This document shows positions 1,930 through 15,198 of a stretch of 15,198 bases of DNA, piece after piece. Under the pieces are notes generated by a model that ran no database searches, was not told the origin of the DNA, and saw nothing but the letters and a program-made list of their open reading frames with translations. Where the stretch lies: assembly GCA_010015675.1 (NCBI GenBank), contig ML977011.1, positions 446,158 through 461,355 on the forward strand, written 5' to 3'. Source of the stretch: Byssothecium circinans (lineage: Eukaryota > Ascomycota > Dothideomycetes > Pleosporales > Massarinaceae). A program made the translations under genes and the position numbers. The stretch's first letter is position 1. The number at the start of each line of letters is the position of its first letter.

Positions 1930-1988
1930 ACGTAAAGCACCACCAAACTGCCTACACCACTAAACCGCCCATGATTCCTTGGCAACAC
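1930..1988 (+). repeat. Left terminal inverted repeat of the Fot1-like element
   Basis: Starts ACGTAAAGCACCACC and ends CTTGGCAACAC. It matches the reverse complement of 3720-3778 over 59 bp, with only C/T or G/A type differences, as expected if RIP has altered the two arms separately. It contains two tandem units of about 17 bp (CACCAC, then AAAC, then CGCCCA or its mutated form), a plausible transposase-binding array. Confidence 0.9.
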
Positions 1989-1992
1989 TAAC

Positions 1993-3697
1993 TTACTTAA
2001 CTTCATCGCCATTATCGTCCGCATCACTACTTGACATGATAAACTGAGTACTAGCCTCCGACTCAGAAGAACCCTCTTCATCTGCTTGACACGTTCTCGC
2101 GTTATGCCCAGCCTTACCGCAGTTGCCGCAGTGGCGAACACCTGGTTGTCGCACTTCGCGTTCACCCTCCACCCTCGCCCTCTTACGGTTCTGAACAGTT
2201 CCTCACGGTTCAGAACCAACCTGGTCTGCTGTAGGACCATACTCCATAGTGCCGCCCTTCTAAAGATACTTGCGCTTGCGTGTTTTTTGCTTAGTTACTA
2301 CTGCAAGTTGCTGTTTAAGCTCTTCAATGCGCGCCTTCATCAGCGCGCTACTATGCAGCATCAACTCAGCGCCTTTGACGAGCTGCGAAAGCCCACCCTA
2401 AGTCGTCCGTGGTGACTAAGTAATAGAATCACGTACTAGCTTTAACTGTGAGCTAAATTCGCGTGTATTACTTAGTGTTCTTGATTGCCACGGCGTCTCT
2501 AGTAGTAGGGGTCCTAGCGGGGTGCGTATACGCACATCAAGGCGATTAAGCACCACCTGCGCGTTCAGAGGGACTAGCCTTATTGCCTCAAAGGCCTTTC
2601 AACAGTTCTGAACCGTAAATACGCTTAAAAACGCGTCTTTAAAGGCTGGTAGGAACGCTTCCTTATTAACGTAAAAGACGTGTTAGCGCGCTAAGTTCCG
2701 AATAGTCTTAGAGTACTTGCGCTTAAGCGGCGAGAATAACACCACATCAAGCGGCTGAAGGATGTGTGATGAGTGCGCAGGCATACAAAGCGTAATAATC
2801 TTGTTGTCCTTGCAATAATCCTTAAAATCCTGATTTAGGTGGCTTTCGTGGCCATCTAAAATCAGCAACCGATAGACGCTGATAGTTCTCGCCTTTGTAT
2901 GCTCGTCAAAGTGCTTCAACCACGCGAGACTAAGCTCATTAGTTGTCTATCCATTCTCTAAGACTAAGAGCTTCTAATTGCGTGGTATATCGGCTTCCTA
3001 GTACCATAAAGAGATATGGACGCGTCCTTTGTATATAATGAATAGTGGGGTGAATGTACTATTTGAACATACTCTAGATATCTATCACCCACTCCTTATC
3101 ACCTGGCTGAACCGTTGTAGGCCTTTCTCGCTTCTCTGAGCCAGTAACTACTTTCATAGAGCTAATAACACCCATCTAAAAGCCAGTCTCATCGAAGTTA
3201 TATATATCATTATCATGTACGCCGTACTTCGCTTTAGTATCCTATACAAGCTTAAACCACGCGCTAACTACCTTAGGATCTTCCTGCAGTGCCCTCTAAC
3301 GGTCCTTTAAATGGTTCTAAACCATTCATAACTGTTCTAAACGGTTCACGAACCATTCTACCTAGTTAATGCCTACTTTCTTACCACCCCACTCGCGCAG
3401 TAGTTTATTCGCCATATCCAACACTTCGTCCAACGTAGGCGCGAATCCTCGCGAATCAAGGTCAAGGATATATAGGATAAGTGTTTCCTGCTCAGTCAAG
3501 GACAGTTTTGAACAGTTCGGTACCGTTTCTGGTCGAAACGGTATTCCTTTGGCGCGTTCGGTAAGGACGCGAGGCTTGACGTTAAAGGCCTCAGCAGCGC
3601 TTCGATAGCTTTGGAATTGGCCTCTATTGTATGCGCTAAGGGCAAGCTGTAGTCTGCCTTCGTGTTGGAGTCGTTCAGACCTTTGTTATTGAGGCAT
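1993..3697 (-). pseudogene. Fot1/pogo-family DDE transposase, frameshifted
   Basis: Cut-and-paste transposase. The ATG at 3697 opens a frame with a Psq/CENP-B type helix-turn-helix (GRLQLALSAYNRG, then SAAEAFNVK), then LTEQETLILYILDLDSRGF, the linker that precedes the DDE domain in this family. Catalytic aspartates lie in NFDETG (codon 3191-3193), LILDGHESH (2854-2856) and LQPLDVV (2746-2748), so the DDD triad survives. The C-terminus has a CCHC zinc knuckle, CGNCGKAGHNARTC (about 2090-2135), and an acidic Ser/Glu/Asp tail ending in TAA at 1993-1995. The frame changes between GDKEWV (about 3090) and LFIIYKGR (about 3045), so a 1-nt indel lies there; several TAG codons and a TGA also interrupt it. 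The family's usual length is about 540-570 residues, which fits. Confidence 0.88.
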
Positions 3698-3719
3698 TTT
3701 CGTGTTGAAGATGGAGTTG

Positions 3720-3778
3720 GTGTTGCCAAGGAATCATGGGCGGTTCAGTGGTGTGGGCGGTTTAGTAGTACTTTACGT
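3720..3778 (-). repeat. Right terminal inverted repeat of the Fot1-like element
   Basis: Partner of 1930-1988. Read from the outer end it begins ACGTAAAGTACTACT, where the left arm has ACGTAAAGCACCACC; all differences are transitions. It is followed directly by the TA at 3779-3780. Confidence 0.9.
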
Positions 3779-3780
3779 TA

Positions 3781-5357
3781 ACTAAAATAGCAATATAGTA
3801 ATAATAGACAAAGTCTAATAAAAAAAGCAGTTTAATAAAGGTAAAGAAAGATAGCTAGATAGCTTAACCTACGAACAATACTAAGAATGCTTTAAGAAGA
3901 AGGCCTATCTTTAATATAGTAAAGTAGGACACTTCCGTAGAAACTACCTAAAGAACTAAGGCTAGGCTAGCAAGCTTAAAATAGTTAAAATTAGGATAAT
4001 TAAGTTTAAAGTAATAAGACTTAAAGAGGAAGAACTAGAAGTACTACGTTAGTAGCTTACTCTTTACCTACCTTTAGAACTAGGTTAAGTAGAACCCTTT
4101 AATAATAACGTTAGTAATAAGGATCCTACTTTATCCCCTAAGAAGCTCTAAGAGTTAGAGATGTTATGCTTAAGCTAAAGTCTAGCTAAAAATAAGGTAC
4201 TAAACTAAGTAGTTTAACTATAGCTAGATACTAAAGTATACTAGAGATACGCTAGCACTATATACGAAGGACTAGCTTGCGTTATACCTGTACTAGTGTA
4301 CGGTAAGAAAGCTAGTAAAATAATAGTAGAAGCTATACAACTTTAAGGCCTATATATTATAAGGGAATATATTAGAGTAGAGGTACTTAAGAAAGATTTT
4401 TACTAAAAGGTTAATTAGTATTACTGCTAAGTAGACTAGTGCCTTTACTATAAACATAAATAAAATAAAGTAAAATAATAGCCTAGGCGGATATTATATA
4501 TTATAATTTTAGATAAAGACTATCTAGTAGCGGCCTACTATACTTATTACTTTAGCAATTAGCAATAGCAACACAAACGCGTTAGATAGCATAAATGCTA
4601 CGATAAGCATTGCTAAACATATTAGCTAAGTAAGCATGTTATAAAATATTAGCTAGTAGGATTAATAGATAGTAATATACTAAATTATAAAATTAAGGAC
4701 TATTAATATTAATACCCTTTAAGACACCCTATAGACTAAAAGCATAAAGAAGTAAACTAAGAATAATATAAAATAATCCTTAATTATATATACTACATGC
4801 TCTGCCAGGAAGAAGCTATGTAAGATAAAAAAAGTTAAAATTATAAGCTACTTATTTTAAAGGAATGCTTAAATAAGGACTGTAAACACTATGCACTCCT
4901 TACCCTTCCTCGCAAATCTAAAAAAAATGCTTGCTAGAGGAAATATAGCAATTCTTTTAAACATTAGCAAATAATGCTAGATAAATAATATTAGGAATAA
5001 GTAGCCTATAGTAATAAACTAGTAACTATAACCTAAGCTTCTATAAGGCTAGAAACCCTACTACTTAATAATATTTTATAAACTATTAAAGTAGAAAGCT
5101 ATAATAGTTTACATTATAAATAGTGCTTTAATAACATATATCTAGTATACCTCTTAAAGAAACTTTAAAAAAAATTCTTGCAAAGGAACGAGCTAGCAAT
5201 AAAGCATGTACGTATGTTATAGACAGCCTGCTATAAAAATAGCTACTTAACGCACCTATCTAAAAAATAGGGAGTAAAAAAGTTTTTAATAAAACTAAAA
5301 AAGTTAAAAAACTAAAATGCTACTAAAGATAAAGTTACGCTAGTAAAAGTATTTTTA
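3781..5357 (+). pseudogene. Ty3/gypsy copy B: gag region with zinc knuckle
   Basis: RIP-degraded gag. At 3906-3947 a CCHC knuckle is recognisable in the pattern Y-L-stop-Y-S-K-V-G-H-F-R-R-N-Y: all three cysteines now read Tyr (TGY to TAY), only the His is left, and the stop sits where Gln is usual. The frame stays free of detectable indels from there to 5357, interrupted only by RIP-type stops. Between the knuckle and the homologue of copy A's 325-535 (here 5146-5357) lie about 1.2 kb coding for an unrecognised segment with Cys/His-containing patches, including HKCYDKHC near 4590 and KECLNKDCKHYA near 4860. The left edge abuts the Fot1-like element at a TA; the right edge is the Helitron insertion point. 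The sequence is more AT-rich than copy A. Confidence 0.75.
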
Positions 5358-5363
5358 AGATCC

Positions 5364-5391
5364 TTCTAATTTTCGTAAACGGGAATTAGAA
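5364..5391 (-). other. Helitron 3'-terminal hairpin
   Basis: TTCTAATT (5364-5371) pairs with AATTAGAA (5384-5391). On the plus strand the stem extends through T-G, T-G, C-G and G-C to a TAAA loop, giving 12 pairs; on the element's own strand the two T-G pairs are C-A mismatches. Restoring two G-to-A changes would give a perfect stem. A hairpin a few bases from the 3' end is a standard Helitron termination signal. Confidence 0.7.
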
Positions 5392-5584
5392 TTTGCGGAG
5401 CGATTTATCACTTGGGGTAGAGAAGAAGAGTAGTTACGCAATAAAGCTTTTTTATTCAGATAGTTAAGCTACCTATCCTAGCTAGTATGCTAGAAACCTT
5501 CCGTGTTCCAGTCCATTATAACTCCTTAAATTGAGTAGTATAGAAAGCTATACTTTGCAGATAATATCCATTTAACGCTAGTAG

Positions 5585-6401
5585 TCATGCCTCATACCGC
5601 CTAATACCCTTGAGCTTGACATGTAGGAGATAGGTAGCATAGTAAGATACAGTATTAGGCGGGCAAGTCCTGCAGAATCTTGCTGTATAGAGCAAGAATC
5701 TTGCCAACATAGATAACATGCTTAACGTCCTTGGCTTGAATAGTGACGCGCTTCCCATGGATAGCACTAAGGTTTGTAGCTAGGCACTATTGTTAGTAGA
5801 GGCTAATACTATACGAATTAGACTAATACCTTGCAAGATGTCTACTAGGAAGGCCTTAGCAGCAGCCTATAAGGCGTCTAAAGCCCTAGACTGGAAACGG
5901 GACACAGGGTCACCATTTCTCTCTTAATTATTCTGCAGCACCTCGCGAACTAATCTCCTAAATGGCGCTACTAGAATCAAGTCACCTAGAGTCTTCTAGT
6001 AGAAACAGATCTCTGCTAGAGCAAAGGCTAATACTAGTATTAGTCTAGCTGTAGTAATATAGGTCAAAAACTTACTATTAGGCTTGCGACGCCTAATGCG
6101 AGGGCCTCCCTTGCTAGGGCCTTTATAGATAGGAGCACGCTCCTTCTGCATGGCGTAGCTTATTAGCTTCCGTGTTAGCGGCGGCGACCCTCCCTTCTTC
6201 TTGCGACCCTCATATGGGTTCGTGCCAGTATTAGTAGGAAGCTTCTTCTAGCCTTTCTTACGAGGACCCAAAGCTAGACACAGTTAACATGTGGCTAATA
6301 CTAAGACTAATACCTAGCCTACCTTAGGCGCTATTACCCTTGCCAGCTCTGCCACGAGGAGCCTTTGCAGGCAGCTTGCCTTGATTCTTCTTAGCGGCCA
6401 T
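5585..6401 (-). pseudogene. Histone H3-like (CenH3-like) gene carried by the Helitron
   Basis: Four exons splice in frame: 6401-6323, 6273-6076, 6015-5830 and from 5779. Introns are 6274-6322, 6016-6075 (donor GTAAGT) and 5780-5829 (branch CTAAC). After an unusually long, Lys/Arg/Pro-rich tail of about 92 residues comes a full histone fold: KPNTEICFYQKT (alpha-N), LILVAPFRRLVREVLQ (alpha-1), RFQSRALDAL-Q-AAAKAFLVDI (alpha-2), then ATNLSAIHGKRVTIQAKD (loop 2 and start of alpha-3). Canonical H3 reads YQKST, PFQRLVREIAQ, RFQSSA and DTNLCAIHAKRVTIMPKD. Loop 1 is five residues longer than in H3, as tends to occur in centromeric H3 variants. Five in-frame TAG/TAA codons interrupt it, two of them exactly at Gln residues conserved in H3 (YQK and the ALQ of alpha-2). 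The C-terminus is uncertain: either read-through past 5726, or a fourth intron joining KD to LKGIRRYEA and TGA at 5585-5587. The role in the element is unknown. Confidence 0.85.
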
Positions 6402-6505
6402 GATGGTATGTTATAAGATATATGAAAGAAAATAAGGTAGACGTAAACTAACTACTTTTTAATTAGAAAACAGACGGAAAACCAATAACATTGACAGTGA
6501 AAGTG

Positions 6506-6548
6506 AAAGTAAGAAATAAGAATAGTAAAAGTAAGAAATAGGAATAGT
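6506..6548 (+). repeat. Two-copy 22-bp tandem repeat
   Basis: AAAGTAAGAAATAAGAATAG at 6506 recurs at 6528 with one A/G difference. It lies in the divergent intergenic region, about 105 bp upstream of the H3-like start codon. Confidence 0.8.
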
Positions 6549-6657
6549 GACAGTACGTAAGGAAGTCAAAATTAGTAGGTAATAGAAGGGGAAATTATAG
6601 GGGAGTATACACATAGAAAGGCTAATACTAAGCCTAATACTTTAGTTATAGCTATAC

Positions 6658-6703
6658 TGCAGCTGCAAAGCTTTGCGACTATAAAGACAGCAAAATCGCA
6701 AAG
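6658..6703. promoter_or_regulatory. Cluster of overlapping palindromes
   Basis: TGCAGCTGCA (6658-6667) overlaps GCAAAGCTTTGC (6665-6676); CTTTGCGA (6671-6678) then pairs with TCGCAAAG (6696-6703). All are exact. Dyads of this kind between divergent promoters suit a dimeric transcription factor; the factor is not identifiable from sequence. Confidence 0.5.
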
Positions 6704-7217
6704 ATTGAGAGTTGTTAAAGTGCGGGGTAGTAGGTAAGCGCGAGAAGTAAGAAGGTAACGTGAAGGTGGCTAGTAAGGGTGAGCGGTAAAGGTAAGTAGT
6801 AAAGGTGAGGGCGCAAAGAGAAGTGAAATAAGAGAGAAAACATTACGTCAGCGAGAAAACCACGTATAAAGATGGGAAATGGCTTCTAAAGAGAGACTAA
6901 TACCTAACCTAATACTATAATTCTAGTATGTACTTATGCAGCTAACTAAGCTGCACACGCTCATGCCAGAATCATGTCATAAAGTGTTGGGCGCATTCAA
7001 CGCACACGATAGGCTGGTGATAATTTCCCGTGATTGCTACCTAGCCCTACTTTTAATTTCGTGTAACTATAAACAAACTTATTGCTGAAAATTTGCCACT
7101 TAATACTACTTCCTATATACTTCTTATACAACGTCTACGCACTACACGCAACTTTGCCCTACTACTAAATAACGCCTAATACCTACCTAATACATCCTGC
7201 TAAGCCCTCTCGCTGCA

Positions 7218-8889
7218 ATGGCAGACCGGAAGAAGGTGAAGGCTGCTGATGCATACTTATCAAATGCAAGCACCATCAAAAATAACAAACTTCGCGCAAG
7301 CAAGCAGGGCGAAGACTTCATGATTCAAAAGGGAAAAAACGCTGATAATAAGGTATAACAACCCCCCTATACCTGAATAATTATATACTAACTTAGTAAA
7401 GGCGTGCTCTACTTTCTAGACAAAGAAGTTCTTGCCACGTATTCAGCACCTGCTTGATAGCGCTACAGATGAAAATGAGCGTAAGCAACTTAAGGACATG
7501 CTTCAAATTTAGAGTCGTAATGCAGCGCTCAAGGCCAGGTATAAGAAGAGTATTAGTCTAGTATTAGGTATAACTAATAATATATAGGGAGAGTTAGAAT
7601 CTGCTCTGGATATAGCTAGCTATGGCACGCACTAGAAAGCTAGAATCTGACTACAAAACTGTGAGATCAGTCTTCAAGCCTCAAGAAAAGGTCTGGGCAC
7701 TAGAAGATGAGTTCATGCCACCTTAGTATATTATTAACGCTGCCTCGTCTACTATTAATGAGAGTGTAGAGAGCAGCAAGTCAAGCAAAAGGGGCAAATC
7801 TAACGCAGGCAAAGCGGATAAAAAGACGACGGATATCAAGGAGAAAAAAGAAAAATTTGATATAACAGTGCCTAACCTAAGCAATAAAGAGAGGGAAGAA
7901 TAGATAGAGCTTAGCTACTAGCTACAGGTGAAGAGATACTAGAATAGAGAGCTTAACATTATAGTAGAAAAGTTAAGGATTCTCTATTATTAAGGGCTAA
8001 AGGGATTTATTCTACGCATGCCGCAAGGCATGTTTATTATAAGTGTAACGCAACTAACCTAATACCATAGCTAATACTAAGCAGCGCTATATCTAGTGGC
8101 TTAACCTAACACTCAATGACTAAGTCACTCTTCTAGTGGCTGGAAAGAAGCTAGTACGTTTAGGATAGGTAAGTGGGGTATTAGACCTAGTATTAGTCTA
8201 GAACTAACCATTGATAGGCTAGTGCTACTTAAAAGGTGTTCAAGAAGACTAAATTAAAGCTACCTATGCGATAGGGTTAAGTAAGTATAGCATTAGTTAG
8301 GGTATTAGGCATAAGCTAACTATAACAGATCATCACTGCAAGGTCAGCACTATAGAAGTTAGAAGTGCCTTATAGATACCTGATTGGCGTTGACACTAAG
8401 TCAAAGATGCCTGTTCCGCTATTCCCTATGCTATTCCCCTAATAACAACGCGTGCTACTCTCTCTAATCTACTAAGCACAGCGTGATGGGGATTATGCAG
8501 ACTCTACTATCTAACTCTTTCGCGATGGTAAAGCATGCAAGCTTCCTAGTGCGTATAATCTACGCACTATTAAAGACTATAGCGCACATTTCCCTAAGGT
8601 ATAGGGCGAGAATGTAGGATATGCTGTAGATCTACTTAACCATATCATTATAGAACTTCCTATAGAGAATACTTCCCAAGGCGAACCAATGGAAGGTGTG
8701 CAAATGGAAGAAGATGCAATAGAAGGTATAGAGCTAGAGGTTCCCTATCAAGGCTACAATAATAGTGTAAAGATGCCTAACATTACGAAATTCATAGAGC
8801 TTAAGAGGCTAGGTGATGAGGGTGACGTTAATCCAAGTCTGTATTTAGTAGATAGTATAGACATAGAGACTATATGCTCTAGGGATTAG
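7218..8889 (+). pseudogene. Unknown basic protein gene in the Helitron, six exons
   Basis: No family was recognised. The ATG at 7218 starts an exon (to 7352) that joins 7420-7538, 7588 to about 8031, about 8097-8168, 8223-8280 and 8329-8889 in one frame of about 463 codons. Introns show GTATAA, GTAAGT and GTAAGT donors and CTAAC or CTAAT branch points; the one near 8032-8096 is least certain. The protein begins MADRKKVKAADAYLS, is rich in Lys and Glu in its first half (KSSKRGKSNAGKADKK near 7775-7825, likely nuclear; a coiled coil is possible), and has a more ordered second half (VPYRYLIGVDTK, VLLSLIYQAQRDGDYAD, FPKVWGENVGYAVDLL), ending acidic. About a dozen RIP-type stops interrupt it. Reading past TAG 8887-8889 reaches TAA TAA TAG at 9004-9012, an alternative end. 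It diverges from the H3-like gene, so the two may work together; that is inference. Confidence 0.6.
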
Positions 8890-9050
8890 GATATGGTTAC
8901 AGAGTATTAGGCTATAGTATTAGGCGCTCTATCCATCTAGATAGATTAGGGAAACTTTCATAGGAATGCTTATATTATAGGAAACCACCCTTACAAAACC
9001 TCTTAATAATAGTGGTATTGGTCTAGGTATTAGACCTAGAAAATAGTCTG
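8890..9050. other. Short gap between convergent genes
   Basis: Lies between the likely end of the unknown plus-strand gene and the end of RepHel on the minus strand. It contains paired GTATTAG motifs at 8904-8923 and 9014-9039. No terminator or polyadenylation signal stands out. Confidence 0.4.
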
Positions 9051-12000
9051 CTACACTATAACGTGATGATGCGCCCTACGCCTTATATCCCGCTCTTACA
9101 TCTCTGATACCTTGCTTCTCTTTTGCTTCAACTACTAATAGGAAAACACATCCTTAAACATTAAACCATCAACAGTCTTAACCCTTGAAAGCGCAACGTA
9201 TATTAAGCTAGGGCAGTAATCTCGCTCCCTACTAACCGTGATCACAGCCTTATCCACACTTAAACCCTAGGATTTATGAACTGTAATAGCCCAGGCAAGT
9301 GTAATAGGGAATTGAATACGCACATGCATACTCTAATTAACAGTAAATTCCTAAATAAGAGGAAACACTAGAATAACCTTTGTACCATCTGGAAGGCTGT
9401 AAAGACATAGCCTATCATACTTATCTATAGCAACTAATACCGCCTTTAGTGTAGCCTTGCGACAATCCTAGGTATTAGGCTGCTAAAGGATATTATTGAT
9501 AACCCCTATAGCCTTATTAACTAAACTACGCTCTGTCTAGATATTGTTAAGTAGCATAACCTAGGCACCAATAAATACAGGGAGCTGGTTATGGAGATTC
9601 CCCGCATCCTTAGTAGACACCTTCTCTTAATCTTAACTATCATGTGTGGCCTATAAAATAAGGATAGGCTGGCTAGAGTCCTAGAGGTAGTTATGATTAA
9701 TAGTAGCTACCTCTATCCTCTTTGCGTATATACGTAAGGTAGAATTAAAGGAGTTCCGTTCTACCTCGCTAAGCTCAACGCTGCAGCGTTTCATAAGGAG
9801 AAGCTAGTCATGGACATTAGGCTTCTCCTCACGGATACGTGTAAGAGCATCACGGAAGGAAGCCTATTTAGAACCCTGCTAGCGCATAACTACATCTAGA
9901 ATAATAGTTCTAGTAAATAGTTTATATAGCGCCGCACCAGCTATATCTGAAGAGCTGTAGCTCTTTGTAGTATCAAACATAGGCCTTCTCATAATAGGGG
10001 GTAACTAGTAAAAATCACTAGCTAGGATAATATTTAAACCACTAAAAGGATAGCTGGCCTATGCTAGAAAGATCTTACGGCACCTCATATCTAACCACGC
10101 TAGTGTTGTTAGCCCTACCATAGACTTCTCATCTATAATAAGGTAATAAACATTAGTAAATAGCGCTTAGGTCTAAGCTAACGCTGCTAGAGCAAGAGGT
10201 GGAAGCACACCACCAGGAGGTTGAATTAGTATGCGGAAGGTAGAGTGGATAGTCTTTCCTAAAATAAGAAAAGTGGCTACTCTAGTTAGTGCGTACCATA
10301 TAATAGGTGATTTCTTCCTTAAAGCCCTCGCAATACTATCCATAGTAGAGGTTATAACCTTAATAGCGTACGTCTTTCCAGTACCACCCTGGCCGTCAAG
10401 GTTAAGAAGAAGCTACTCTGGCCTATTCCTATCTAGGTAGGCTTGATAATGATTAATGATGAGATTAAACAGTAGCCACTATTTAGACTAAAGGGTATTA
10501 GGTGAGGTATTAGGTCTAGTAGCGTAATTGACTAGATGAGCTGTCTTCATCTCCTTCTAATATTAACGTGCATTAAGGCCGTAACTATCCTTATGCTCAG
10601 GTACGTTCTAATCCTTCTCTAGATCAACTAGCTAACTGCCTAGGTTATCCTTATTAATGATAACACCATCAGCACTAGGGAGACGACTAGTAAGCTTATT
10701 CTATGATGACTTATCTACTAAATCCACGTCTTCCTAATCTAGATCTTCTTCCTTATTTTTAGGTAACACCTCTCCAAAGCTATCAGGTAAAGGGTGATTG
10801 CATACCAACAGGCAGTTCCGATAGGCTTGCAAGAATAACTAGTACTCCTGGCCGGCAAAGGTCCTTACATCTAATACCTGTCGAAATGGATGATGTAGCA
10901 TAAGCTTGACGTGAGAGAAGTCTTCCCTATCTAACTCAGGAGAGTATAGAGGGTAAAACTTTAAAATCCTAGGCCTAGCCTAGGGCCTAACTCAATTCTT
11001 TGCATGGTCATAATAAAGAAGGTAGTCTAAATAGGATACGGCTTTAAGTAACGGAGGCCTCTCCTTGTATTTTACTAGTACAGAACGGCCCTTAGTAAAC
11101 TAAGGTGTATCTTTCTTAAATACTTTATCATCAACTTAATAATTAGCTTGAAAGACGTACGTCTTAGGCTGATCCTCCTTATAATAAAGGTTAACGTTAA
11201 GAATAGTATGACTACAATCCGTAAGGGGTAGATTAAAGAGGATGTGGCAAACTTCCTAAGCGCTATAGTCCCTCTAGCCCACTAATTTATTCATTAACTT
11301 TGCTATAAACTTGAACATAGCATTCTCAGACTAGATATAAGGTAGTATCTTAGTAGCCATATCCTTAAACAACGTCGTCTGCTGCTCTACCTTACTAACA
11401 TATAGACTAACATATTAAACAACACCTGTAGTACTAGTGCAAGGCTATATATTAGTATTAGCCCGCCAGCCTAATACTAGAGTTCGACAGTACGCGTTTA
11501 GAAGTGGATGATTCCGTTGAGCGTAGAGACGGTAAAAAGACTTCCTAGCTAATTTAGTGAAGTAGGGATTAGCTGTACGTGGCTAGGGAGCCTTAAAGCG
11601 ATAGACTACCTCACCCATCTTCTTGTTTTTCCTTTGGTAGTAACTAAGATGACATACATGTATGTAGCACTTAGTCAAGATAGTAGCAAGTTCATGAAAG
11701 TTAAAAACTATCTGATCAAATGTAAGAGATAAGGGGGAGCCATATGAATGCTCTAGAGTAGCCTTGTATGGGTTAGGATGAATAGCGCTAATGTAATAGC
11801 CCCAATACTTTGCTAATCATCACTTCTTAAGCTTAGTAGCATTCTAAGCTAAATACTAATTAGGATGAGGTGCATCCCTATAGTAGTATAGGCCATAGTT
11901 ATGAGTACTACTATGGCCTTGCCACTCGTAATAATGCTAGAAGTTAATAAGGTTAAACTTAGGCGTCATAACATGCTTCTTAAATAGTTTAAATCGACGG

Positions 12001-12188
12001 TAGAACTAGTAAGCAATAATGTGTAGGTTATCGCGTATGAAATCCTGTACTAGCCTTACTTGACGTGCATTAGTTGTAGTCTACTACTTAGTAAAGGCCT
12101 CCTCTCCCATAAATCTCATGAGATCAGCCTAATGGTAATCCGCAGCAGAGTATATAACAAATAGATGAGGACATCGCAGCTGACGAAC

Positions 12189-12253
12189 CTATTAATAAAA
12201 GTTAGATGTTAATAATAAGGGTATTAGCTAGGTATTAGGTAGACTACACGTAC
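12189..12253 (-). other. Intron of RepHel
   Basis: 65 bp, donor GTACGT, CTAAC branch point 12 bases from the acceptor AATAG. Removing it joins the two RepHel frames exactly at a codon boundary, which is strong support. It contains CTAATACCTAGCTAATAC (12221-12239 on the minus strand), the pair seen in introns of the other two Helitron genes. Confidence 0.8.
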
Positions 12254-13708
12254 TATAGCCTTCAGGTTTATACCCTCTACTTTCTAATACGCATAAGAAC
12301 CTTAAATAGAGGCAGAGAACTATACTACAGCGTTAATCAAACTCTGCCCACCATTAGCGCTGTTAAACTGAGCTTGAATATCCTCAGCTATCATAGAAGC
12401 GCCGTCTAGTGTCTTCCTTATAAAGAAACCCACCTTTGTAGTAGTTTGCCTGCGGAGAAGTGTATTAAAGGTAGTAAAATGGAAACGTAAGTAATAAGCA
12501 AAACGTCCATCCTTATAGCTTATCATATGCTGAACATAGTCCGCATATGCAACCTCTCGCATCCTTAGTTGCATATAGTCACTAATTCCATTTAGATACA
12601 AGGTAGGAAATGCAAGACTAAGGATCTTTTCCTAATTGCTATATTCAGAAATAGGTGTCCTTCGCACTGAGCCCATAGTAAGGTAGGAAGGTCTTGATTA
12701 GATTTAACAACGCAAAGTCTTAAATTCACTAACATTAGGAACAATATTAGGAACCATGGTCGTGTTAGCTCTATTATCGTTATTATCGTCCTTATCAAAA
12801 ATCAAGCTACTATCATAGTAGGAATCCGCGCTAGTATTAGGCCTAGTATTAGGTGGTGACCCATCTAGTGTATAGGTAGTCGCAGCAGGTATAGATGGTA
12901 GGGGTGAATAGTCTAGCGTATAGGATGGCGACACTAGCTCTTACGTATTAGGATAATCCCCTAGCCTAATATCTATATCCCTATGCTAAAGCACAGTAAA
13001 TTAATCATCTACATACCTATCAATAGGGAGTTCTTGAATAGCCTTATCATTAATAACAATATCACTATATCTAGAGTGATGTGCCTTTAACTATTACAGC
13101 CAACGCAACACTATAGTGCACCTTACTTTCCAACTCTTCTTGAATTGACGTTCAACTAAAGCGTGGTCGTCCTCATCTAAATATGGTAGTTTAAGGATAA
13201 TAATATCAAGCTTAGATAGAAGGACAGGAAGCCTTGAAAATACCCTAGCTACATTGACGGCGAAATGATATATATGCCCTCTGTACTTATACTACTGCCC
13301 ATGATGCTAACATATCTGCATAAAACAGTGAACCTAGGCAATAAGCATCTCCTTAACATTAGTAAGAGAAGGGAGGTTAGGCATTACACCTAGATCCATA
13401 TTATTTGCAGTACTAAATATAGGCACCTAATCCTCTTCAGCACTATGTTTAACGCGATTAGTTAAACAGGCAGTATATTCCCCATGGCAAACGTTTAGGC
13501 GAAACCAATGACAGTTGTAAATTATACACGTCTCTATCTCTTCTTTCTTAAGTGCGTTGTAAAACGTAGAGATATACGTTTTATCTTGATCAGATAATGT
13601 AGGATTAGAAAGATAGGAACTGTCGTCCTGAATTCGTAATAGGGGCTCTTCTAGAGGGAAGTCATATATATTCTCTTCTACCTCTATAAGCATCTCTCTA
13701 TCTACACT

Positions 13709-13810
13709 ATTATTAAACTCATTAACCACATGTTCTTAAGACTTAGCTACTGCTATACCATTATCTAACTCATCAACTACATGTTCTTTAGACTTAGCTA
13801 CTGTGTAGGT
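13709..13810 (-). repeat. In-frame 51-bp tandem repeat inside RepHel
   Basis: Two units of 51 bp (17 codons) encode VAKSKEHVVDELDN and VAKS-stop-EHVVNEFNN on the minus strand, with mostly transition differences. It lies in the variable N-terminal third of RepHel. Confidence 0.75.
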
Positions 13811-14416
13811 TGTACGACTAATACCAGGACTAATACTAGAGCAAGTATCGCGTGATTGCACTAAAGATGGAGGGGTATTCTATAAAACACCCTCCCCTTG
13901 CTATTATGAATACCACGGCTGTGATATAGAATGTATTACGGCCATCCATGGTAATAGTTGACTAGAAAGCGTTTATAACAATGATAGGGGTTCAATGGGA
14001 GTCATGGCGCTTAGCAGTGCTAATAGGGGAAGTTAGGATAAGTAAGGTAATAGTAACGTATTTAAAGACTAAGACGGTGGCCTAATACTAAGACTAATAC
14101 CAGCCGCACGAAGAAGCTGCTGCTTAAGTGGAGTCCCTAGTACGGTTAGCGCATACAGCGTAGACATTAGTATAGATTAAGGTTAGACTAGCGTTAGAGT
14201 ACGGAGAATACTAGATAAAGGACTAGAGTCTGACGTTAGCGTTGCGTGATACTTCGTAGGGGGTGCAGCTTTATGCTCTAACGTATTTGCTCGCCATTTA
14301 TAACTCTAAGTAACTGTAAGGCAAGCCTGACAGTTCTTCTTCTATTTATTATTGCGAAATTAATCAACGCCAGGCGTAAGAGGTGCGTTGCAGTAATTGC
14401 AGTGTAGAACATCCAT

Positions 14417-14862
14417 AATAACGTGTAAGGGTACGTGGATGGAGGGAAGTAGTATTAGGTAGTATTATAAGGTATTAGGCCTATAGTGTAGCGAATTTTT
14501 TCTTTATAACATAGGGTTTAGTCATGTTGCCGCATGCAGTGGCTAGTAGACAAAGTAGCGTAAGCAGCTTTTAGACCCTAAGCCCCTGTTTTACTGCCTA
14601 ATACAGGACACGCGACACGCGTATTAGTCGTGATTCTAAAGAACATCATTCAAAAAACACTGTTTTATCCACGCATACCTATTACAATGAATTAAATATA
14701 GGCTGCTATTAGTAGAACTATCAAGGGTACAGTTTTTAGCATATATAGAAAAATCAGCAATGAAATTCAATAGGTAGAAGTACGTCAAAATGCGATTTTT
14801 TAGAAGCCCTTAGGCGCGATTTAGATTGTAGATTTGCTACGCTCGTTCCTTACTCCACAAAA
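14417..14862 (-). promoter_or_regulatory. Helitron 5' end and RepHel leader
   Basis: 446 bp upstream of the RepHel start codon to the inferred 5' tip. No coding is seen. It holds a triple GTATTAG cluster (14452-14482, the middle unit decayed), two single motifs (about 14597 and 14621) and ACACGCG twice in tandem (14608-14621). The RepHel promoter is presumably here. Confidence 0.45.
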
Positions 14863-15125
14863 TAATAACTTTATATAACGTATAATACTTAGATCTATTA
14901 GTTTATTAACTAAAAGTAAAAGTACACGTATATAGATATAAGCTTATAATACTTATAGATAGTAAAACTGCATAGACAATTATCTCCTTATAAGTAGCTA
15001 AAAAATATAATATACTTTATTAAAATAAGGAATATTTAATATAAGTAATATTAGCTAATAATAGACTAATATCTTATAGTAGTAGCTTCTTAAAGTTAGA
15101 AACTTAAGAAGTATTATTCTACATA
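14863..15125 (+). pseudogene. Ty3/gypsy copy B continued: gag end and protease
   Basis: Resumes copy B after the Helitron. Bases 14863-15123 align with copy A 536-796 with almost only transitions, copy B being the more AT-rich. The protease active site is at 14958-14966, read D-S-K. It is interrupted at 15124-15125 (TA) by the next pogo-like element. Confidence 0.85.
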
Positions 15126-15198
15126 ACGTAAAGCACCACCGAACCGCCCACACCACCGAACCGCTCAAAAGCTTGGCATTAGAAAATCAAAACAGGAT
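15126..15198. mobile_element. Pogo/Fot1-like element, left end only
   Basis: Begins ACGTAAAGCACCACCGAACC directly after a TA (15124-15125). The first 40 bp match the terminal repeat of the central Fot1-like element, with the 17-bp unit CACCACCGAACCGCCCA twice in tandem, the second ending CGCTCA. Beyond that it diverges and resembles the end at 282-324. It shows essentially no RIP decay, unlike the other ends. The element continues past the window. Confidence 0.8.

Follow-up and report, generated by a model that had tools for sequence, protein, structure and literature searches.

Introduction

Helitrons capture genes (PMC4289320, PMC4067079), and the precedents in print that lie nearest to the locus described here are histone fragments in a Culex Helentron and a SET gene in a proto-Helentron (PMC4067079). 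In Culex quinquefasciatus, Helentron-Cq-32A is present in 8 copies and contains fragments of H4 and H15 that are 83–84% like the host genes and are broken by a stop, a frameshift and indels (Thomas et al. 2014, PMC4067079). Proto-Helentron-Pi of Phytophthora infestans carries a gene with a SET domain, of the histone-modifying enzyme type (PMC4067079). In fungi, the FoHeli/Helitron2 elements of Fusarium oxysporum and Chaetomium globosum have asymmetric inverted repeats, a hairpin and a RepHel gene, and FoHeli1/2 and the Chaetomium Helitrons obey the same insertion rule, between TNAT and A (PMC5148889). The word "histone" does not occur in the main text of the FoHeli paper (PMC5148889) or in that of the Pleurotus paper. 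A plant system offers a different parallel: Arabidopsis VANC21 binds dense YAGTATTAY motifs in its own element, VANDAL21, and lifts silencing (PMC5735166).

Here we describe a Helitron of the ascomycete Byssothecium circinans located in a stretch of 15,198 nucleotides (contig ML977011.1, positions 446,158 to 461,355), hereafter the window. Like Helentron-Cq-32A, it is an amplified Helitron-class element with histone sequence; unlike that element as described, it carries an H3 variant that is open in one copy, is far diverged from the host genes and occurs in two element lineages (PMC4067079). It resembles proto-Helentron-Pi as a rolling-circle element with a chromatin-related gene, but the Byssothecium element carries a histone itself and not an enzyme that modifies histones (PMC4067079). 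With FoHeli/Helitron2 it has the inverted repeats, insertion at TNAT/A and RepHel in common, and a 3' hairpin is predicted in it too; its terminal sequences differ from those given for F. oxysporum and C. globosum (PMC5148889). The original prediction knew of no Helitron cargo of this kind. In the open PMC literature searched, no report of an intact H3 gene as a component of a Helitron was found; histone sequence as such has its precedent in the H4 and H15 fragments of Culex (PMC4067079).

The element and its ends

The following features of the element were located in the window:

5357..14861, minus strand: the complete Helitron (9,505 bp), sitting in a repeat at TNAT^A; 3' end common to 16 copies
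14850..14861, minus strand: 5' terminus with one arm of the asymmetric inverted repeat; most copies read TTTGCGGAGCGA, the window copy an altered form
5392..5403, minus strand: 3' subterminal arm of the asymmetric inverted repeat, TCGCTCCGCAAA
5364..5391, minus strand: predicted 3' hairpin, at the same place in 16 copies
9040..14030, minus strand: span of the RIP-damaged RepHel gene (DUF6570, Helitron_like_N, PIF1), with approximate limits carried over from C62
7218..8889, plus strand: ORF2, opposite-strand gene of the element; limits approximate

The window copy was 89.7 to 95.1% identical to 15 other copies over the main aligned stretches, and all 16 have the same 3' end. The termini read TTTGCGGAGCGAGG... 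at the 5' end and ...TCGCTCCGCAAATT-hairpin-GGATCTT at the 3' end, with the 5' arm found again, inverted, close to the 3' end; the predicted hairpin is weak by energy alone (z -1.46). Ten of these 16 copies had a recognisable 5' end, identical in all ten; in the remaining six the 5' part was outside the sequence compared, missing or off pattern. TNAT preceded 10/10 recognised 5' ends, and A followed 17/17 matches to the 3'-end pattern. When the flanks of the window insertion were joined, they aligned without duplication with another, uninterrupted copy of the repeat that the window also contains (one empty-site alignment). The defined Helitron ends of the original prediction are thus borne out by the ends shared among copies, the TNAT/A pattern and the empty-site alignment.

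Three characters of Helitron2 (FoHeli type) were found in the element: an asymmetric terminal inverted repeat (TTTGCGGAGCGA at the 5' end, TCGCTCCGCAAA subterminal at the 3' end), insertion between TNAT and A without target duplication, and Rep (HUH) together with a PIF1-type helicase, recognised by domain profiles (PF14214, PF05970 and DUF6570 above cut-off in open segments of C62). The 5' TC and 3' CTRR ends of canonical Helitron1 were absent, the ends here being TTTG...ATCTT, and the AP endonuclease that is fused to RepHel in Helentrons had no match in the six RepHel segments of C62 given to Pfam. Judged by its sequence, the element is of the Helitron2/FoHeli type.

RepHel matches in the window copy lie at 11889-12191 and 9852-10406, on the same strand as the H3 gene, as had been predicted. 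Three of the six C62 segments scored above cut-off, for DUF6570, Helitron_like_N and PIF1, the others being below cut-off or without a match. RepHel holds stops even in C62, so that no copy is shown to be intact throughout or autonomous today. For ORF2, two segments were compared with Pfam and neither scored above cut-off. At C17:346171-360351 lies a RepHel relative of greater divergence (49-55% identity in matched segments), broken by insertions and traced to a point short of its 3' end. The repeat flanking the Helitron also holds an insertion of its own, the remains of a DDE_1 transposase (window 1930-3770, E 1.1e-19), and a terminal sequence like that of these remains recurs near 15125-15198.

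Structure of the H3 gene and its open copy

Near the 3' end of the Helitron lies a gene for an H3-type histone with the following parts:

5655..6401, minus strand: H3-variant gene, RIP-inactivated in the window copy; three introns fit
6401-6323, minus strand: exon 1 (long start) of the 195-codon model
6076..6273, minus strand: exon 2, basic N-terminal tail
5830..6027, minus strand: exon 3, coding for the H3-fold elements alpha-N, alpha 1, loop 1 (long) and alpha 2
5655..5779, minus strand: exon 4, ATNL..IHGKRVTI and the element-specific C-tail

Spliced with three introns of 66, 48 and 50 bases, the C62 copy gives exactly P0001, a protein of 171 amino acids deposited as a histone-fold-containing protein of Byssothecium circinans. 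In this model the first exon is shorter and exon 2 begins at an acceptor further on (window position 6256). The best end for intron 2 is GTATTAG, the one used in P0001, and it yields PGTFALAEIRFYQKT in C62. The earlier ATG (window 6401) was present in 15/15 readable copies, the 16th, C69a, being masked there. In C62, codon 4 after this ATG is a stop, so this copy is open only from the later start, the one used in P0001. From there it is open over 171 codons, as the sole open copy among the 16 aligned.

A Pfam histone search of the 48.4-Mb genome returned 23 matches, 16 of which were copies of this gene; 15 of these (window included) had internal stops and one, C62, had none. The profile search proposed in the original prediction did find a histone: the spliced C62 copy matched Pfam Histone with E 3.2e-21 and the window copy itself matched PF00125 with E 3.3e-6. 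A PDB sequence search had histone H3 as its top matches (E 9e-18), and no NCBIfam family scored above cut-off. Among proteins, a first search gave four from 341 candidates, with a single close one, P0001; a second gave 640 from 685 candidates, 120 of the 640 being among the matches listed. Viral contigs scanned with P0001 gave four pattern matches, none of them a relative. P0127 was considered as a second living gene and rejected, as we take it for a gene model over the RIP-damaged copy C26 (95% alike over the last 43 residues).

Damage by RIP

The original prediction had read the window copy as spliced in frame throughout, which did not hold. Its H3 gene has five premature in-frame stops, at codons 26, 35, 98, 122 and 141 of the 195-codon model, and the claimed FYQKT reads FY-TAG-KT. 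For each of the five stops, one or more of the 16 aligned copies have CAG or CAA instead; read against these copies, the stops are C-to-T changes typical of RIP. In the longer model C62 has one internal stop and the other 15 copies have 5 to 11. Across the 16-copy alignment 222 of 230 polymorphic columns were C/T or A/G; A was the next base in 70 of 112 C/T columns and T the previous base in 61 of 110 A/G columns. The TpA/ApT ratio was 1.53 for the window element and 1.16 for the C62 element, compared to 0.64 to 0.74 in three host loci. As its codons read, the window copy is dead and cannot make H3 protein.

Damage of this extent, with at least five stops in 15/16 aligned copies, would suit a Helitron that took up a host H3 or CenH3 by read-through replication and has merely multiplied it since. 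Helitrons are known gene capturers (PMC4289320, PMC4067079), and the gene adjoins the 3' end, where read-through capture would place one. The comparison of copies and lineages, given next, speaks against such an origin.

The gene across copies and in a second lineage

When the final 245 bases of the element were searched for in the genome, 26 matches were full-length, and a match to P0001 lay just upstream in 26/26, the window included; both counts are lower bounds (at least 26), and the pairing was judged by place. Chance placement of the H3 gene is ruled out by these 26 full 3'-end matches. A 27th copy, C59, halts at a contig end. Strong 5'-end matches numbered 25 in the genome, and those without a 3' end on file were counted neither for nor against the pairing. 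All genome searches cover one eukaryote genome, that of B. circinans.

Four short 3'-end matches were found besides, in C107, C7, C33 and C17 (644 kb). In C107 and C7 the position of the gene is taken by a ruined relative of the H3, while no H3 match was found in C33 (C33:228556-229566) or in C17 at about 643.6-644.2 kb. The short relative in C33 keeps both Helitron ends, and the shorter C17 fragment keeps the 3' end together with an internal piece of the 5' part.

C107 and C7 are 92% alike and belong to a lineage that is far diverged from the main family: at the DNA level only the last 64 of the 655 bases searched match. Their read-through product can be aligned with P0001 both in the fold and in the C-tail, a stretch that is specific to the element and absent from host H3 and CenH3. 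Compared with P0001, the C107 read-through scored 128, where 2000 shuffles averaged 23 and reached at most 39, and its C-tail score of 49 was equalled in 0/5000 shuffles. C107 scored 133 with the Helitron H3 core, 71 with host H3 and 64 with host CenH3.

RIP makes transitions only, and we therefore counted transversions as a measure of selection. In a protein-guided alignment of the ruined sequences, with one junction codon left out, 97 codons were compared, and transversions at their first, second and third positions numbered 21/13/36 for C107 and 21/13/38 for C7. The excess at third positions over equal thirds was significant for both (p 0.0013 and 0.0005, respectively), the two results not being independent since C107 and C7 are 92% alike. 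We take this crowding between the lineages as a RIP-independent sign of past selection at the protein level. In the reading that we favour, the H3 gene has been resident near the 3' end since before the split of the main family from the C7/C107 lineage.

Outside the Helitrons, the closest relatives that the genome search turned up were host H3 (45/78 residues identical) and host CenH3, P0005 (50/87), and it turned up no others. A distant host donor could have been missed as well, because the same search missed C7 and C107. The frames of host H3 and CenH3 also break at other points, as judged by reading. With the same gene and C-tail in a second diverged lineage and the transversion excess at third positions, a passively multiplied host gene appears unlikely. 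The gene is not the single captured copy that the original prediction had named as grounds for giving up its claim, and 26/26 full 3'-end matches, the second lineage and the lack of a close host donor among the relatives found bear out a mobile element with its own H3 variant.

Which kind of H3

By profile and by sequence the protein has an H3-type fold. The fold comparison is weaker: an AlphaFold model showed histone helices with a mean pLDDT of 65 and a pTM of 0.37 (pLDDT about 78-83 for residues 111-170, lower before). The entries behind the 12 best Foldseek matches contain nucleosomes, the UAF complex or Cse4-H4, and two of these 12 chains, 6gej_A and 4kud_A, are named Histone H3 in the PDB sequence search; only three matches reached E 0.001, and TM by query length was at most 0.38. 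The canonical H3 tail motifs MARTKQ, ARKS and GGVKKPHR were absent, by reading, from P0001 and from the longer first exon.

A centromeric origin was considered, in which the gene derives from a Pleosporales CenH3 and its product either acts as a competitor at centromeres or gives rise to centromere-like chromatin on the element itself. Loop 1 is five residues longer than in host H3 and two longer than in host CenH3, and APF and EAFLV are present as in host CenH3. Loop 1 has RFQ, however, instead of the RWQ of the CenH3 rows. The H3 tree proposed in the original prediction gave a divided answer. Trees were built with 26, 25 and 32 rows chosen from 227 proteins; the C107 row, which grouped with the C62 row (99/95), was dropped after the 26-row tree for its extreme branch (10). 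In the best 25-row tree the Helitron H3 stood among Pleosporales CenH3 (97/94), and grouping it with H3 was not rejected (p 0.42). With orphan H3 variants added (32 rows) it fell outside the CenH3 group, weakly beside P0129 (70/93); grouping with CenH3 was not rejected (p 0.25) and grouping with H3 was marginally rejected (p 0.047). It sits on a long branch in these trees. As the 25-row and 32-row trees disagree, we call the protein an H3 variant and assign it to neither H3 nor CenH3. CenH3 ancestry is possible from these sequences, but a mobile centromeric histone with the activities named above is very improbable.

Three similar orphan H3 variants were found, compared by protein alone. P0141 (Venustampulla echinocandica) has PIYK before the fold, RF and IHGKRVTI, and is identical at 57/111 residues; P0210 (Tricladium varicosporioides) has LLPVAPF and IHGKRVTI in common with the Helitron H3; and P0128 has QATNLGAIHGKRVTI and 56/100 identical residues. 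A search of the host genome with P0141 returned known loci only. In the 32-row tree, constraining the Helitron H3 to the two Leotiomycetes variants (P0141 and P0210) had p 0.375, and constraining it to these and P0128 had p 0.557, where the constrained tree slightly outscored the unconstrained one; a common group is neither demonstrated nor rejected by these tests.

A motif dispersed through the element

One further feature is spread over the element:

5601..14478, both strands: 19 copies of the octamer GGTATTAG; all 19 in the window fall inside the element

Only 1.2 copies were expected in the window, and 0/200 shuffles reached 19. For the 7-mer GTATTAG, the window element had 46 occurrences, where shuffles averaged 4.1 and reached at most 9, and the C62 element had 41 (mean 1.8, maximum 6; 100 shuffles each). 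In the second lineage it was found 17 times in C107:1-2654 and 0 times in the following 2,346 bases, while C7:1-6851 had only 8 (shuffle maximum 7). All three H3 introns contain the octamer. The motif is often paired at 12 bp, with 276 pairs in the genome compared to 1 for the reversed control; of 100 pairs among the matches listed, 91 lay, by reading, in Helitron copies or fragments and nine in two tandem arrays. These 12-bp arrays, with the unit GTATTAGAACTA, are located outside Helitrons at C3:590273-590351 and C7:131977-132019. In C62 (spans approximate) the motif per kb was 6.0 in the first 830 bases, 2.6 in the RepHel span, 5.5 in ORF2, 7.3 between ORF2 and H3, 8.1 in the H3 gene and 3.5 in the last 287 bases.

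A dense, element-specific motif, as in VANC-type systems, is thus present. As in VANDAL21 it is short, runs throughout the element and is denser outside coding parts (PMC5735166), and the core of YAGTATTAY resembles GGTATTAG, the likeness being one of layout and core letters (PMC5735166). VANDAL21, by contrast, is a plant VANDAL element; exact YAGTATTAY occurs 0 times in C62, and the motif here is known from sequence alone. The GTATTAG/GGTATTAG sites are possibly a binding site of an element protein, with ORF2, RepHel or H3 as candidates.

Proposed role of the Helitron H3

Taken as a whole, mechanism included, we consider it probable that this Helitron2-type family of Byssothecium holds a strongly diverged H3 as a resident gene near its 3' end. 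We are highly confident of its position, copy number and gene structure, the H3-type fold by sequence, the shared C-tail, the sign of past selection and the ruin by RIP. What the protein would do is a tentative matter. An intact copy would make the H3-variant protein, which may pair with host H4 and be deposited on element DNA, either on chromosomal copies or on the double-stranded circle. Because the tail lacks MARTKQ, ARKS and GGVKKPHR, nucleosomes built with the variant would be unable to bear the usual K4, K9, K27 or K36 marks. Filamentous ascomycetes silence repeats via H3K9 methylation, and variant nucleosomes might favour expression or replication of the element under such silencing. 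From the missing tail motifs and this mode of silencing we infer deposition and blunted silencing; that the protein is made, pairs with H4, is placed on element DNA and favours the element is possible, though doubtful.

The histone fold could instead serve transposition, packing or guarding the circle or single strand of the element like the RPA-like proteins of some others. A resident gene beside RepHel and the basic tail would fit such an accessory, as would the RPA domain being unmatched in the eight segments given to Pfam, which cover part of RepHel. The conserved IHGKRVTI and D148 of P0001 suggest an H3-type use, and we regard a packing role as quite unlikely.

A bolder extension of the resident, chromatin-forming H3 would join histone and motif. 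The variant, unable to take silencing marks, and the approximately 40 dispersed GGTATTAG sites, often paired at 12 bp, might together form a self-marking chromatin kit in which ORF2 or RepHel guides the histone to element copies, as a fungal, histone-based counterpart of VANC anti-silencing. This extension is a long shot.

Transposons contend with host chromatin silencing, and a transposon lineage with an H3 variant of its own would make self-packaging of chromatin by a mobile element directly testable. The Helitron H3 could also show the origin of orphan H3 variants in fungal genomes, and it offers a histone that is naturally without the standard tail motifs.
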